NCBI GenBank assembly: GCA_016184145.1
Contig: JACPDF010000024.1
Location: 1-63,573, forward strand
Direction of reading: 5' to 3'
DNA: 63,573 nucleotides
Source of the DNA: Candidatus Woesearchaeota archaeon
Lineage (GTDB): Archaea; Nanobdellota; Nanobdellia; Woesearchaeales; GW2011-AR4
The notes under the pieces were generated by a model, which was not told where the DNA came from, searched no databases, and was given only the letters and a program-made list of their open reading frames with translations. Positions 9,370 through 34,438 of the stretch are shown here, one piece after another. Within the stretch, counting starts at the first letter, position 1. Every line of letters starts with the position of its first letter. Both the position numbers and the translations under genes were made by a program.

Positions 9370-10581
9370 ATGCATCTGCCAAAGTATAATGCAAAAAACC
9401 ATCCTTTGTTTAATTGCGGCAATGTAAACTGCCCTATATGCGCCAAGGCTTATTCCCAAATCAGGATAAAGAAAAGGATTGTCAAGGAAAATTTTTCTAC
9501 CGATGCTGTTGCCCCGTTTGTTGGAAGGTATGGGTATCCTGCTGTAAATGTCGGAATACTGGCGCCTCCGTCTGAGGAAGAGGAGTCATGGCTTTATGAT
9601 GCCCCGAAATACTGGGCTGCAAACAATTTCCAGATACCCAGAATAGTTGATTTCAGGAGCTCTTTGATAAATTCAAGGGATAAGTTTGATATCAAGAAGA
9701 GGAGCAATTTTTTGGAGCTAAACCAGGAGGTAAGCATGGCTTCAATGCCTGTTGATGTGGACATTAATCTAAAGGGCAAGCCGCGCTTTAGGATAAATTA
9801 TGACAATTTAATGGCTCCTACAGGCCCCTATGCAGAGCTAAAAAAGGCCAGATTAACTGAGAATCCAAAAATCCACACAAAGGTTCAGAAAGTGCATTAT
9901 GACACAGACTTAAAGGCAAATGAGGCATTAGTCTATCTTTATGATAATAATTTTGATGAAAATTTCTTAAGCAGGATTTTAAGTGTAGGCGCATTGGGCG
10001 TTGGGAAAAACAGGAAGTTAGTTCCTACAAGATGGTCGATAACAGCAACTGATGATACACTGGGAAGGCATTTGATTAATGAAGTAAAAAAGCATAATCA
10101 GATTGATTATTCTGCCTTTTTCGGCAGCTATCTTGGAAATCATTACTTAATATTGTGTTTTCCCGATGTATGGAGCTATGAATTGTTTGAGACAACCGTT
10201 TCCAATCCTGAATATTACATGACTGACCATGAGTTTTATGACAGCAGGAAATATTATGCTGAGAACACAGCTGGAGGCTATTATACAGTAAGATTGGCAA
10301 TATTGGAAAAATTAAATGAAATAAAAAAACAAGGAAGTTGCTTGGCTTTGAGGTTCATCACTTCTGATTATACATTGCCTTTAGGAGTCTGGGTTACAAG
10401 GGAAGCGGCAAGGAATGCCATGTCCTCGAAAAGGATAGAATTTTCATCAAAGGAATTGATGCTTGAATATGCAAGGAAGCTAATTAAGAAAAGGTTTAAC
10501 TTGGATGCAGAAGTTTATTTAAGGCAAAGCAAGGTTTTAAGGAGTATTAATAACCAATCGAAACTAATACAATACCTGTAA
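9370..10581 (+). CDS. DNA repair protein NreA-like
   Basis: Cys motif CGNVNCPICAKAYSQIRIK, FVGRYGYPAVNVGILAPP block, C-terminal PIP-like QSKLIQYL; ATG at 9370 preferred over 9304. Confidence 0.85.
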   Translation: MHLPKYNAKNHPLFNCGNVNCPICAKAYSQIRIKKRIVKENFSTDAVAPFVGRYGYPAVNVGILAPPSEEEESWLYDAPKYWAANNFQIPRIVDFRSSLINSRDKFDIKKRSNFLELNQEVSMASMPVDVDINLKGKPRFRINYDNLMAPTGPYAELKKARLTENPKIHTKVQKVHYDTDLKANEALVYLYDNNFDENFLSRILSVGALGVGKNRKLVPTRWSITATDDTLGRHLINEVKKHNQIDYSAFFGSYLGNHYLILCFPDVWSYELFETTVSNPEYYMTDHEFYDSRKYYAENTAGGYYTVRLAILEKLNEIKKQGSCLALRFITSDYTLPLGVWVTREAARNAMSSKRIEFSSKELMLEYARKLIKKRFNLDAEVYLRQSKVLRSINNQSKLIQYL

Positions 10582-10607
10582 TAAAAATGCAAAAACAGCC
10601 ATTAGAA

Positions 10608-10622
10608 TCAAAATATTTAAAT
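10608..10622 (+). promoter_or_regulatory. TATA-box promoter for leucine-rich leader ORF
   Basis: AAATATTTAAATATG about 30 nt upstream of ATG 10651, spacing typical of leaderless archaeal transcripts. Confidence 0.6.
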
Positions 10623-10650
10623 ATGAATCATTAAATCTACATAAATTAAA

Positions 10651-10728
10651 ATGGCTGACAAAAGAATAAATAAAAATTCTGTATTGTCTTTGTTAGCTTT
10701 AAATCTATTGCTTCTGCTGTTGCTGTAA
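10651..10728 (+). CDS. Putative leucine-rich leader peptide (25 aa, 11 Leu, 7 terminal consecutive Leu)
   Basis: ATG GCT GAC AAA AGA ATA AAT AAA AAT TCT GTA TTG TCT TTG TTA GCT TTA AAT CTA TTG CTT CTG CTG TTG CTG TAA; located between a TATA box and a LeuA-family gene; absent from the ORF track because of size. Confidence 0.65.
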   Translation: MADKRINKNSVLSLLALNLLLLLLL

Positions 10729-10835
10729 GGCCCACCAAGAGTCGGTATATTCTTAATGGGTCTTGAATTTTGAGCTTGTCTGAGTTCTAGGATATGCTGG
10801 CGAAAAAAACATTGAAAAGATATTGGAGGATAAAA

Positions 10836-12530
10836 ATGATTGCATCAAAAGAGAGAAGGGAGCCTATTATATTTGACACAACTTTAAGGGAGGGTTTTCA
10901 GACACCGGGAGGAATAGGCGGATCTTTAGAGGAGAGGGTATATGCTGCCGCACTGATACAGAATTATGCTCACTGGGTTGAAATTGGAATGCCTGCTAAC
11001 AATGTTGATTATGACATTATAAGTGCCATAAGGGACAGATTTTTAGCTGAAAAATATCCAGTTGGACTTGCCGTTCTTGCAAGATGTGCGGATTTGGATG
11101 TAGAACGATCAGCAGAAGTTATGGCTAGTTATCCCAACAATTTGATACATTTGTTTGTTGGTACCTCTGATGAGCACAGAGCTGTGCGCTTCGGAGGTCA
11201 GGATAAAGACTATTATGCCCAAAAAATTTCAAAATATGTAGAAATGGCTGCCGCTAATCCTGTTTTCTTAAGGGTTATGTTTTCTCCAGAAGATTCCTAC
11301 AGGACATGGGCACAAGACCATGAAACTCTAATAAGATTTATTGAAGCAGCTAAAAAAGCTTATGATAGGGGAAATACAAAAGTTGGTAGGAAAGAGCCAG
11401 TAATATTTAATTTACCAGACACAGTCGGTGCCAGCACTGTTGAGGAGTTCTGCGGGGTGATAGAACATGTTCAGCAAGTATTTGGCAACGATGTTGAGTG
11501 GAGTGTGCACTGCCATAATGATAATCGCATGTCTCAAGCTCAGGCATTAACCGTATACGAAAGGTTTGGTGTTCCATGGATACAAACAACTTTTGCGCAG
11601 CTAGGAGAAAGGAATGGAATTGCAGCAACTGATTTAACAGTTAAAATCTTATCAGAGCGCGGCTATTTAAATGAACCAAGGATAACATCCTTAGACAATC
11701 TTAGATTGCTTGACCCCACCATGAATGCCATTATGTGGACATTAGGAAGAATGGTGCCAAAAGAGCATCTTGACAGGACAAACATTTCCACTGCCGGAAT
11801 CCACACAGATTTGGTTGTAAAAGACACATCTACATACCACATAAGGGGTGATAGGTATGGCTCACAAATTTATATAGAACTTGGACCAACATCGGGGAGC
11901 AAGCAGGTGATTGACGTATTAGAAAAAAATAGGTTTCCTTACACAAATGTTCCAAAAGAAGACATTGAAAAATTTACAGAACGATTAAAACATGAATCAA
12001 ATGCAGGAAAGTTTCCAATTTCTGAAACCCATATTCTTTATGAAGCACTCAAGGAATTTTTAAGATTTGAAGATGATGGACTGAAGGTTACTAAGTATAG
12101 ATCTATAACTAAATATGATGGTGTTGAATTGGTCGGCATAAGTGGTTCTATTGATGGTACTCCTTTTAGGAAAGTGCATAAAAGCAGAGGTCCAGTTGAA
12201 GCTGTCATGGAACTACTTAATGGTGTCATAAATGAGCATAGGGGCACAGATTCAGAAATAGCACTTGTAGATTACCTACCCTATATAGTTCCTATTATTG
12301 GAAAAGAATATCTAAATTGGGAAGTTGGGCAACGTCCTCAAATACCAAGAGAAGTAGGAAAACATGCACATCAAGGCGTTTACTTGATGTTCAGAAATGG
12401 CTCAGGAGTATACCAAGGATGGGCTAGGCACGAAAACAGTTCAAAAGCGCCAATTGATGCTGTAATTGATGGGATGACTAAAATGTATGCACTCCAGAAA
12501 TGGCAGAATCTTGCAAGACATTCGAAGTAA
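10836..12530 (+). CDS. 2-isopropylmalate synthase / homocitrate synthase family protein (LeuA-like)
   Basis: FDTTLREGFQTPG, NLPDTVGAS, HCHNDNRMSQAQAL motifs; C-terminal region resembling the regulatory domain; SD GGAGG at 10825-10829 before ATG 10836 (ORF track begins at 10794). Confidence 0.88.
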   Translation: MIASKERREPIIFDTTLREGFQTPGGIGGSLEERVYAAALIQNYAHWVEIGMPANNVDYDIISAIRDRFLAEKYPVGLAVLARCADLDVERSAEVMASYPNNLIHLFVGTSDEHRAVRFGGQDKDYYAQKISKYVEMAAANPVFLRVMFSPEDSYRTWAQDHETLIRFIEAAKKAYDRGNTKVGRKEPVIFNLPDTVGASTVEEFCGVIEHVQQVFGNDVEWSVHCHNDNRMSQAQALTVYERFGVPWIQTTFAQLGERNGIAATDLTVKILSERGYLNEPRITSLDNLRLLDPTMNAIMWTLGRMVPKEHLDRTNISTAGIHTDLVVKDTSTYHIRGDRYGSQIYIELGPTSGSKQVIDVLEKNRFPYTNVPKEDIEKFTERLKHESNAGKFPISETHILYEALKEFLRFEDDGLKVTKYRSITKYDGVELVGISGSIDGTPFRKVHKSRGPVEAVMELLNGVINEHRGTDSEIALVDYLPYIVPIIGKEYLNWEVGQRPQIPREVGKHAHQGVYLMFRNGSGVYQGWARHENSSKAPIDAVIDGMTKMYALQKWQNLARHSK

Positions 12531-30646: not shown

Positions 30647-30694
30647 ACACAATATGTTGTGGTTCTTAACTGCAGTATATACAATATGTTGTGT
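30647..30694 (+). promoter_or_regulatory. Two NrdR-box-like sites: ACACAATATGTTGTGG (30647-30662) and ATACAATATGTTGTGT (30679-30694)
   Basis: Each agrees with the recalled bacterial consensus acaCwAtATaTwGtgt at 14/16 positions; offset 32 bp; upstream of class II RNR. Confidence 0.65.
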
Positions 30695-30733
30695 CTATGT
30701 CTAGTGGTAAAAAGAGGGGAGAGGGATGCAAAA

Positions 30734-33700
30734 ATGACGTCAAAGATTTCTGAAATAAAAAAACGCGATGGCAGTGTAGCGGCTTTTGACAGCAGCAAGA
30801 TAGCCAATGCAATATTCAAGGCTGCAAGATCTGTTGGCGGCCAGGACAGGAATGAAGCTGATAAGCTTGCAGATAAAGTTGTCAAGGAGCTTGAAAAAGA
30901 AACAGAGGGCATCCCGACAGTTGAGCAATTACAAGACTTAGTGGAAAAGGTTTTGATAGAAGCAGGGCATGCAAAGACAGCCAAAGCCTATATTGTGTAC
31001 AGGCAGAAAAGGGCTGAGGCAAGGGAAGAGAAGATGAGAGTCCTGGAAAAGGACTATTTAGATGATGTTGACAAAAGGTTTGATGTCAATGCTTTGAGGG
31101 TTTTAAAGGCGAGATACCTAAAAAAAGATGATAAAGGAAAGCTTATAGAAACGCCAAAGCAGCTTTTTACAAGAATATCCACTCACTTGGGCATACCAGA
31201 GATTTTTTATGATGAAAAAGTGTTTGACATAAACGAGAAGCAGAATGTTTTTGAGATTGAGGAGTTTAACAAGGAAGAGCAGGACAACAAAGTTTCAATA
31301 GGAAAATATAAGCTAAACCAATACCACATGGAAGGCGTAAGAAGGCTTTATGAACGCTACAATAAGCAGAAAAAGATGAAGGTTTCATGGAGCCAGTTTT
31401 TAGAGCTCCTGGAGCAAGGCTATTTTAACAACTACGAGAGAAACATAGATGAATTCTACAGCCTGATGGTTGAAAAAAGGTTTATGCCTAATACACCGGC
31501 AATAGCAAATTTCGGCAATTCATTGGGAATGGGAAGCGCGTGCTTTCATCCCGACCAGCTTATATTAACAGAAGACGGCCCAAGAAAGATAAGCGAGGTT
31601 AATGCAGGTGACAAGGTTTTGACGCATAGGGGAAGATTCAGGAAGGTCAAGCAAGTGTTTGTCAGGGATTCTAATTCGCTTCTTTCCTTTGAATGCAAGA
31701 AATTGCCTAAAACCACAATGTTGGCAACAGAGGAGCATCCAATATTAACGCACAAAGATGGCGAAGCTGGATGGTATCCTGCCTATATGATAAAAGAAGG
31801 CGATAAAGTAGCGCTTTCGTACCCTGCTGAAACAAAAGATGTGGAAAAAATTTTGGTAAGTGAGTTTGTGGATGGAATAACAGTAAAGGATGACAAATGC
31901 TGTTATGAGTATAGCGGAGGCAAATTCAATGCATTTGTGCACACTACAAAGTCTGTAAACAATACAATCTTAGTTGATTATGACTTAATGAAGCTGTTTG
32001 GCTTTTATTTGGCAGAGGGCACTGTTTCTGAAGAAGATTGCGTCAGATTTACATTATCTGCGGATGAAGCAGATTACTGCAATGAAATCATTTCCATAAT
32101 GGAAAGGAAATTTGGAGTATCAGCCAGAATTGAAAGCACTAACGATGCAGAAAGAAAGTGGCTGTCTCTGCGCTTTCATTCAACAATATTGGCAAAGTTC
32201 TTCATTAGCTTATTTGGGACTGGCTATAATAAGAAAAAAATACCCAGCTGGATTATGTTGCTTCCAGCTGAGAAGCAAAAAGGCCTGATGTCTGGTATGA
32301 TAAGAGGGGACGGAACTGTATTTAAGAATTGGAACAAAATGAATGCAAAGCTTGTTATGTCAAATACCAGTTTAGTGTATGCATTTTGGCAGATGTGCAT
32401 GCGATGCGGCGTTTTTGCTGCACTAGGCAAAGAGAGCATGCCAAAGCTTGCAAAGGTACAGCCCGTCAGATGTACCTTAGGAGATGCAAAAGGTCAATTA
32501 TTAATGAATGAATTATTTGGAGAAACTATACAAGAAACTGTTAGCGAAGACAAAACTTTTGTTGTAAATGGGATTGTTTTTACAGATGTAGAAAAGATTG
32601 AAAAAATTGATTATAAGGGTGCTGTATATAATTTAGAGGTGGAAGAAGACCATTCTTATGTAGCAAATATGGTTTCTGTGCATAATTGCTTTGTTTTAGG
32701 TGTAGAGGACAGCATGGAAAGCATCATGGACACTTTAAAGTACACTGCAATCATACACAAAAGCGGAGGAGGGACTGGATTTAATTTCTCGAAGATAAGG
32801 CCGGAAGGGGATTTTGTAAGCTCAACTTCAGGAGCAGCATCCGGCCCGTTGTCTTTCATGAGGATGTTTGATACAATGACAGAGGTAGTCAAGCAAGGAG
32901 GGATAAGAAGAGGAGCAAATATGGGGATATTAAACAGCAACCACCCTGACATAGAGAAGTTCATAACAGCCAAAGAAGGAAACAAGGCTTTGACTAATTT
33001 CAACATCTCTGTTTTGCTAATGCCTGATTTTTGGGAATGCTATGAGAAAAACAAGCCTTATCCATTGGTAAACCCAAGAAATGGAGAAGTGGTAAAGACT
33101 GTTGATCCCAAAGCTTTGTTTGATAAGATTGTTTATCAGGCATGGGAATCAGCAGAGCCAGGAGTCATTTTCTTTGATATTGTAAACGATTACAACCCGT
33201 TCTTTGAGCATCTGGGGCCTATAGTCACAACTAACCCCTGCGGAGAAGTGCTTCTTTATCCTAACGAACCTTGCAACCTAGGAAGCATAAATGTATGGGC
33301 TTTTGCAAAAGAGGATGGGCAGGGAAACGTGTATTATGACTGGAACGGCCTGAAAGAAGTCACAAAGAAATGCACCAAGCTGCTGGATAATGTCATTGAT
33401 GTAAATAAGTTTCCGCTGAAGCAGATAGAAGAGATGAGCCTTAATACAAGGAAGATTGGCTTAGGAGTTATGGGAGTTGGTGATCTATTGTACGAGTTAA
33501 GGCTGCCATACAATAGCGATGAGGGAAGGAAGTTTATGGAAAAACTGATGCAGTTCATCGCTTACCATTCCCATGCTGAAAGCATGGAGTTGGCAAGGAA
33601 AAGAGGCAATTTGCCTTACTATGACAAAAGCTTCTACAAGGGAGGAAGGCTGCCTTTCAGGGGCTTTGAATTAAAAGATGAGTGGGAGCATGACTGGAAA

Positions 33701-34438
33701 AAGTTAAGTGACGATGTTAAAAAATATGGAACAAGGAACGGCTACACAACGGTTATTGCGCCTACAGGCAGCATATCAATGATAGCTGGATGCTCATCAG
33801 GAATGGAGCCGGTGTATAGCTTGGCGTTTGAGAAGAATGTCAAGGTTGGAAGCTTCTACTATGTTGACCCTGCTTTTGAAAGGGCTTTAAGGAGAGAAGG
33901 CTTATACTCTGAGGAGCTTATGCAGGAAATATGCGAGAATGGGGGAAGTGTACAAGGATTAGAAGATTTTCCTGCAAAACTGCAGAAGGCTTTTGTTACT
34001 GCAATGGACATAACTCCAGAAGACCATATAAGGGCTCTTGCAGCATTCCAGAAATGGGTTGACAGCTCAATTTCAAAGACAAATAATTTCCCGGCAGATG
34101 CGACAGTAGAGCACATGAGAGACAGCTATATTTTAGCTTACAAGCTTGGATGCAAGGATGTCACAGTATTCAGGGACTCAAGCATCAAGAACCAAGTCCT
34201 GGTTGCGCCTAAAAAGAAAGAAATTGAGAAGAAAGCTGAAGCTGTTGAGATAAAGCACGAACTGAGAGTTGCTGGAAATGGAAGCGCAATGGCGCAAAAA
34301 GAGCTTGACTCCGGAAGCTTGGTAATGCAGAGCGAGAGCAAGGGAAAGACGAGGACATGCCCCGAGTGCGGCGGACAAGCCCAAATACAGGAAGGCTGCG
34401 TCACATGCAAAGCATGCGGCTGGGCGTTATGCAAGTGA
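30734..34438 (+). CDS. Adenosylcobalamin-dependent (class II) ribonucleotide reductase, with ATP-cone and intein
   Basis: ATP-cone KRDGSVAAFDSSKIANAI; RNR motifs PNTPAIANFGNSLG, KSGGGTGFNFS, NPCGEVLLYPNEPCNLGSIN, APTGSISMIAGCSSGMEPVYS; C-terminal Zn/Cys cluster. Confidence 0.95.
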   Translation: MTSKISEIKKRDGSVAAFDSSKIANAIFKAARSVGGQDRNEADKLADKVVKELEKETEGIPTVEQLQDLVEKVLIEAGHAKTAKAYIVYRQKRAEAREEKMRVLEKDYLDDVDKRFDVNALRVLKARYLKKDDKGKLIETPKQLFTRISTHLGIPEIFYDEKVFDINEKQNVFEIEEFNKEEQDNKVSIGKYKLNQYHMEGVRRLYERYNKQKKMKVSWSQFLELLEQGYFNNYERNIDEFYSLMVEKRFMPNTPAIANFGNSLGMGSACFHPDQLILTEDGPRKISEVNAGDKVLTHRGRFRKVKQVFVRDSNSLLSFECKKLPKTTMLATEEHPILTHKDGEAGWYPAYMIKEGDKVALSYPAETKDVEKILVSEFVDGITVKDDKCCYEYSGGKFNAFVHTTKSVNNTILVDYDLMKLFGFYLAEGTVSEEDCVRFTLSADEADYCNEIISIMERKFGVSARIESTNDAERKWLSLRFHSTILAKFFISLFGTGYNKKKIPSWIMLLPAEKQKGLMSGMIRGDGTVFKNWNKMNAKLVMSNTSLVYAFWQMCMRCGVFAALGKESMPKLAKVQPVRCTLGDAKGQLLMNELFGETIQETVSEDKTFVVNGIVFTDVEKIEKIDYKGAVYNLEVEEDHSYVANMVSVHNCFVLGVEDSMESIMDTLKYTAIIHKSGGGTGFNFSKIRPEGDFVSSTSGAASGPLSFMRMFDTMTEVVKQGGIRRGANMGILNSNHPDIEKFITAKEGNKALTNFNISVLLMPDFWECYEKNKPYPLVNPRNGEVVKTVDPKALFDKIVYQAWESAEPGVIFFDIVNDYNPFFEHLGPIVTTNPCGEVLLYPNEPCNLGSINVWAFAKEDGQGNVYYDWNGLKEVTKKCTKLLDNVIDVNKFPLKQIEEMSLNTRKIGLGVMGVGDLLYELRLPYNSDEGRKFMEKLMQFIAYHSHAESMELARKRGNLPYYDKSFYKGGRLPFRGFELKDEWEHDWKKLSDDVKKYGTRNGYTTVIAPTGSISMIAGCSSGMEPVYSLAFEKNVKVGSFYYVDPAFERALRREGLYSEELMQEICENGGSVQGLEDFPAKLQKAFVTAMDITPEDHIRALAAFQKWVDSSISKTNNFPADATVEHMRDSYILAYKLGCKDVTVFRDSSIKNQVLVAPKKKEIEKKAEAVEIKHELRVAGNGSAMAQKELDSGSLVMQSESKGKTRTCPECGGQAQIQEGCVTCKACGWALCK
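31541..32686 (+). other. Intein (382 aa) with LAGLIDADG-type homing endonuclease domain inside class II RNR
   Basis: Starts CFHPDQLILTEDGPRKISEV, ends SYVANMVSVHN followed by Cys+1 (CFVLGVED); internal LFGFYLAEGTV and LMSGMIRGDGTV; boundaries in frame (1146 nt). Confidence 0.93.

Follow-up and report, generated by a model that had tools for sequence, protein, structure and literature searches.

Ribosome-mediated attenuation is textbook bacterial control. In the leu/ilv attenuators of bacteria (enterobacterial leuL and ilvL, and ilvBNC of Corynebacterium), a leader rich in codons for the end product precedes the first biosynthetic gene and is followed by an RNA structure, and in ermC-type translational attenuators a ribosome stalled on the leader breaks a hairpin, the signal in that case being a drug. 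A run of Leu codons and a conserved pseudoknot are also found upstream of leuA in the actinobacterial LEU element, where the Leu-codon run pairs with the Shine-Dalgarno (SD) sequence and where mutated Leu codons behaved unlike classical attenuation (PMC1262725). For archaea, no report of a leader-peptide attenuator was found in open-access full text, and a Ribo-seq paper on Methanosarcina mentions uORFs only generally (PMC11456600).

The archaeal locus described here lies in the window, which is the whole stretch of 63,573 nucleotides from a Candidatus Woesearchaeota archaeon that was analysed, and has the following features.

10614..10623, forward strand: TATA-like element TATTTAAATA, 37 nt 5' of the leader ATG
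10651..10728, forward strand: leader peptide ORF, MADKRINKNSVLSLLALNLLLLLLL and stop; frame conserved in 17 family genomes
10705..10725, forward strand: control run of seven Leu codons ending at the stop, seen in the sequence and in the Leu/Ile match across the order
10726..10734, forward strand: stem A 5' arm TAAGGCCCA, containing the leader stop codon
10741..10753, forward strand: stem B 5' arm GTCGGTATATTCT, within the stem A loop
10757..10765, forward strand: stem A 3' arm TGGGTCTTG
10789..10801, forward strand: stem B 3' arm AGGATATGCTGGC, pairing with the stem B 5' arm
10825..10829, forward strand: SD sequence GGAGG of the downstream gene, seen in the sequence
10836..12530, forward strand: divergent LeuA (2-isopropylmalate synthase)-like gene with an HMGL-like domain, of a clade with LREGFQ

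The sequence-only reading had proposed a Leu-rich leader ORF, a TATA-like box and an SD sequence at 10825, and all three were recovered, the leader in every detail: its 25 codons include 11 for Leu, of five types (TTG, TTA, CTA, CTT and CTG), and seven of these stand at its end. The TATA-like element predicts a near-leaderless transcript for the leader, and TTTAAATA is kept at its position in the family alignment. The start ATG of the downstream gene is at 10836, leaving a gap of 107 nt between leader and gene. The LeuA-like open frame also contains an earlier ATG at 10794, within the 3' arm of stem B, which is probably not the true start, as the SD sequence favours 10836; gene finders may nevertheless pick it, and so annotate across the regulatory RNA.

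The element shares with the bacterial leu/ilv attenuators the order of codon-rich leader, RNA structure and biosynthetic gene, and, in relatives, mixed Leu/Val/Ile runs before leuA loci that have an ilvB-like frame next. It differs from them in being near-leaderless by prediction, with a control run that ends at the stop, and in having a pseudoknot or a single hairpin that overlaps or abuts that stop; mutually exclusive antiterminator and intrinsic terminator structures with a U-run were not found, stems A and B having no bases in common and U-richness being modest. Unlike those of the LEU element, the archaeal stems use stop and post-stop sequence, neither Leu codons nor SD, and stem A overlaps the stop; the two also belong to different domains of life, and the archaeal set includes an Ile version before cimA. 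With ermC-type systems the element has in common the predicted disruption of a hairpin by a stalled leader ribosome and, in two genomes (G393 and G475), a buried SD sequence, whereas its signal would be amino-acid codons rather than a drug and the SD sequence of the window lies 23 nt beyond the structure.

The DNA at 10600–10840 matches 24 of 79 related genomes, around 18 of them strongly (74–86% identity) and mostly just downstream of nreA, and the similarity of the leader among these ~18 family genomes is, on sequence grounds, not due to chance. Within the window's family at least 17 genomes conserve the leader, with both the frame and the Leu run kept in 17 of the 17 examined, and the 17 peptides compared are of 23–27 residues and resemble MA(N/D)...SLLALxLLLLLLL. 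Across the aligned 12-codon core of these 17 leaders, 351 of 464 single-base codon differences (76%) are synonymous, against ~30% expected. Because of this synonymous drift, and because the frame is kept, the substitution pattern shows that selection keeps the leader ORF coding, and coding for leucine in particular. Drift of the Leu codons among relatives would have spoken against the original reading, and it was their conservation, together with that of the short ORF, that was found instead. Two family members carry tandem copies: in G025 there are two tandem units of Leu leader and RNA (L321/L325) with a small ORF after each, and in G014 (L041/L061) the leader end and hairpin are partly duplicated in tandem.

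Leaders were then surveyed in 322 genomes of one archaeal order, using a symmetrical rule (an ATG ORF of 12–60 codons, I/L/V at 8 or more of the 12 C-terminal positions, and a stop 20–260 nt upstream), with gene identity assigned by NCBIfam models. LeuA-type and LREG-type genes have a leader in 28 of 44 cases, of which 27 are Leu-dominant and one is a tie. Among genes for CimA, the citramalate synthase with which isoleucine synthesis begins, leaders precede 13 of 21 of the TIGR00977 type and 5 of 5 of the Leptospira type, and all 18 are Ile-dominant. The difference in Leu or Ile dominance by gene type is strong (Fisher p = 7e-12), and nine genomes carry both kinds. By the same rule, no leader was found before homocitrate-like paralogues (0/8) or in a reverse-strand control (0/78). 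Leaders are missing by the strict criterion from 16 of 41 LeuA-classed genes, some of which have short or cut upstream regions and some of which are probably other paralogues. The LeuA of G048 scores above its NCBIfam cut-off and the CimA of G012 exceeds that of TIGR00977 (538 vs 450 bits); the second G048 enzyme has the Leptospira-type NF042433 as its best model yet falls below its cut-off. After several true leuA genes comes an IlvB-like frame (read by eye); the leaders of these genes contain both Leu and Val, as a shared pathway would predict. Of 46 BCAA leaders, 41 have a TATA-like motif 18–45 nt upstream, where coding windows give an expectation of 1.3. Comparable leaders are present in further orders of the class (G411 and G441; weaker in G393 and G475), on a Diapherotrites contig (JAFCCK010000005.1) and, more weakly, on a Nanohalarchaeota contig; a second contig scan returned mostly bacterial LeuA and is a weak outgroup, with a Leu-rich ORF in only two (bacterial) of 82 upstream regions.

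Across the order, the codons of the control run correspond to the amino acid at the end of the downstream gene's pathway, although the part that the window's own gene plays in a pathway is doubtful, and we regard this match between codon identity and enzyme pathway in relatives as the decisive evidence that comparison offers. It also bears on whether the leader could be a functional small membrane peptide, its Leu run a transmembrane segment and its proximity to the gene simply operon structure. Such a peptide would fit the hydrophobic C-terminus, the polar and partly conserved N-terminus (MANTNKKLNS) and the better conservation, within the window's family, of the leader than of the downstream gene, but would leave unexplained the exchange of Leu and Ile runs with the kind of enzyme downstream, the loss before homocitrate-like paralogues and the fact that the run ends at the stop where a covarying RNA starts; we consider it very unlikely.

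The conserved RNA (10726–10801), which had escaped the sequence-only reading, begins with the leader stop codon itself. Stems A and B interleave in the order of an H-type pseudoknot. Since pseudoknot-free RNA folding gave mixed structures, the stems were assessed by exchanging their arms from genome to genome, and arms of the same genome out-paired exchanged ones, with 1 of 20000 permutations as good for stem A and 0 of 20000 for stem B, a few stem B anchors being mis-set. Paired cells make up 91% in the anchored segments, compared with 24–49% in slid controls, and double-change cells number 31, compared with 10.3 +/- 2.6 expected (0 of 500 shuffles), counts which, coming from hand-anchored segments, lean towards structure. 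A covariance model (R1), built from the post-stop RNA alone and without leader sequence, matched 28 times, in 22 of 59 relatives and always inside the window's family; it recovers the whole of 10726–10801, of which the window genome has one copy. Six of the seven matches outside the training set have a Leu- or Ile-run leader whose end coincides with the match's first codon; one of them, in G022, is a newly found Ile leader upstream of a gene for a divergent CimA-like protein. A search of 10300–11200 against Rfam gave no family match (best E-value 4).

In other families, nearly all leaders have a hairpin whose 5' arm starts within ~10 nt of the stop, and the hairpin is strongest at that position (17.5 vs 10.6 in shuffles); the RNA outside the window's family is mostly such a simple hairpin, of varied sequence. 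From these comparisons, the element is a leader joined to a pseudoknot or hairpin that overlaps its stop, and not a leader peptide alone. In many families a motif of the CAT(T/C)(G/C)T type lies beyond the hairpin next to the stop (15/46 vs 1.3 in shuffles), its place in the window being 10766–10790.

A compact H-type pseudoknot common to the Leu- and Ile-type leaders of the family might instead be read as a ligand-binding riboswitch or a protein-binding site to which the leader is incidental, as has been proposed for the LEU element (PMC1262725). This we judge highly improbable, given that one RNA fold serves both Leu and Ile genes while the codons differ, and that the varied simple hairpins outside the family would provide no fixed pocket.

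The element is very probably a leucine-sensing ribosome-mediated attenuator; what the comparisons themselves establish is a coding leader with a Leu run, a conserved RNA overlapping its stop, and codons matched to the pathway. The suggestion that bacterial-type attenuation logic operates in an archaeon is in this way strengthened by the conserved Leu codons, the product-matched Leu/Ile codons and the covarying post-stop RNA. Transcription would start at about 10643–10645 and the leader would then be translated by ribosomes. When Leu-tRNA is plentiful, the ribosome would reach the stop and depart, stem A and the pseudoknot would fold, and expression of the downstream gene would be low. When Leu-tRNA is scarce, the ribosome would wait on the Leu run with its 3' edge over the stop and GGCCC, blocking stem A and allowing the gene to be expressed; a ribosome at the end of the run or on the stop must exclude stem A, because the stop itself belongs to that stem.

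The output step may be transcript release or ribosome access to the downstream start, and need not be alike in every lineage. The SD sequence of the downstream gene is covered by the hairpin in G393 and G475, suggesting translational control there, while in the window the structure stops 23 nt short of an SD sequence that is not sequestered, so that transcription or RNA stability is the likelier target. SD sequestration as a general explanation was set aside, as it holds for these few loci and not for most, the SD sequence being usually distant from the structure. Support for an intrinsic terminator goes no further than modest U-richness after the hairpin (0.39 vs 0.27–0.32), with no long U-run. 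FttA-dependent termination, which a review regards as probably responsible for archaeal polarity (PMC12548453), could be an output. Translational coupling, in which termination on the leader and reinitiation feed the downstream start without any sensing of leucine, would suit a leader that is predicted to share its transcript with the gene, the latter having an SD sequence in front of it. It is, however, extremely improbable, as it leaves the product-matched codons unexplained, and as gaps are usually 50–140 nt; in both Haloferax and E. coli coupling fades past 30–40 nt (PMC12548453), so reinitiation across the 107 nt of the window is unlikely.

The downstream gene had been taken for a member of the 2-isopropylmalate synthase family, a view which stands insofar as the protein is a LeuA paralogue that matches the HMGL-like domain model (PF00682), has the HCHND motif and is of similar length to LeuA. 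The paralogue is a divergent one: it scores 129.6 bits against the 532-bit cut-off of the best LeuA model, too low for an equivalog, and has RDGEQ changed to REGFQ. It groups with two others, L132 and L135, which also have Leu leaders, in a clade that reads LREG(F/L/M)Q instead of LRDGEQ. Its relatives, at 23–34% identity, occur in 18 of 79 related genomes, and a direct search of genome contigs found no close ones. No LeuC or other aconitase-family protein was found in the window genome, which is 97% complete, and canonical leucine synthesis is for this reason probably missing in the organism; control of leucine synthesis there is consequently not supported, and the product under control is probably a LeuA-like paralogue outside a working leucine pathway. 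The window genome also has a weak match to a divergent TrpE-like protein (E 2e-6, G000:C5:1806-2090) and no match to HisG, and divergent paralogues of first-step enzymes (TrpE-like and LeuA-like) may have been repurposed in it.

Within the window's family, what comes after this leader and its RNA varies: a LeuA-like gene in G004, G010 and G014, a stand-alone LeuA_dimer domain in G024 (E 1e-21) and G032 (E 6e-16), and small ORFs with no Pfam match in other members. The leader has thus outlasted the synthase. The proteins of G024 and G032 (L048/L049) have the LeuA allosteric domain PF08502 without the catalytic domain, and are possible leucine-binding candidates. The lack of LeuC, together with downstream genes that are divergent or replaced across the family, could also mean that the window element is a relic, functional in leucine-making relatives and no longer so here. 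We think this unlikely, since the leader, stems and TATA-like element are intact in the window, the leader is under purifying selection in the family, and the element is retained in the genomes where a stand-alone LeuA_dimer gene takes the place of the enzyme.

If attenuation by leucine does operate here, the regulation of archaeal genes would extend to sensing amino-acid supply through codons, something that calls for close interplay between ribosome and nascent RNA in archaea. A pseudoknot laid over a stop codon is a simple and testable design, and leader codons would offer a way to read which amino acids are monitored by uncultivated archaea. The leaders also point to genes of obscure role that may be leucine-responsive, among them those for stand-alone LeuA regulatory domains.

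Short ORFs of other kinds were observed before hisG and trpE. Ahead of hisG, 12 of 33 genomes have short, mostly TATA-preceded ORFs with a (D/G)C(I/L)H motif near the end, such as MKRVDCIHC, MTRSDCIHC and MKRVGCLHCE (loci L252, L294, L283, L290, L247, L289, L260, L259, L288, L284, L251 and L258), and the motif was found in 0 of 27 regions before trpE and 1 of 79 before LeuA-family genes. L251 and L260 have a tRNA-His gene nearby, located between the motif and hisG, and one is also present in L282. These ORFs are possibly His leaders or tRNA-sensing elements; apparent second copies of the motif right at hisG were discarded, being the hisG N-terminus in another frame. Before trpE, several of 27 genomes have ORFs with a (D/G)C-x-W motif (L264, L266, L268, L298, L265 and L263), for example MTSDCPWHR, MKSDCPWLGKRNI, MTRVDCRWHWL and MTYKSDCRWS, with a tRNA-Trp gene in L298, and this motif was found in 0 of 33 regions before hisG and 0 of 79 before LeuA-family genes. 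It is tentatively conceivable, at somewhat less than an even chance, that codon-matched leaders form, in these archaea, a general language of amino-acid sensing that evolved separately from bacterial attenuation, with Leu or Ile runs and a pseudoknot or hairpin for leuA and cimA, and (D/G)C-x-His or (D/G)C-x-Trp before hisG and trpE, sometimes with the matching tRNA gene between. Elsewhere in the window, a ribonucleotide-reductase-like ORF at 30659–34438 contains an apparent intein (CFHPDQLILTEDGPRKI ... VHNC).
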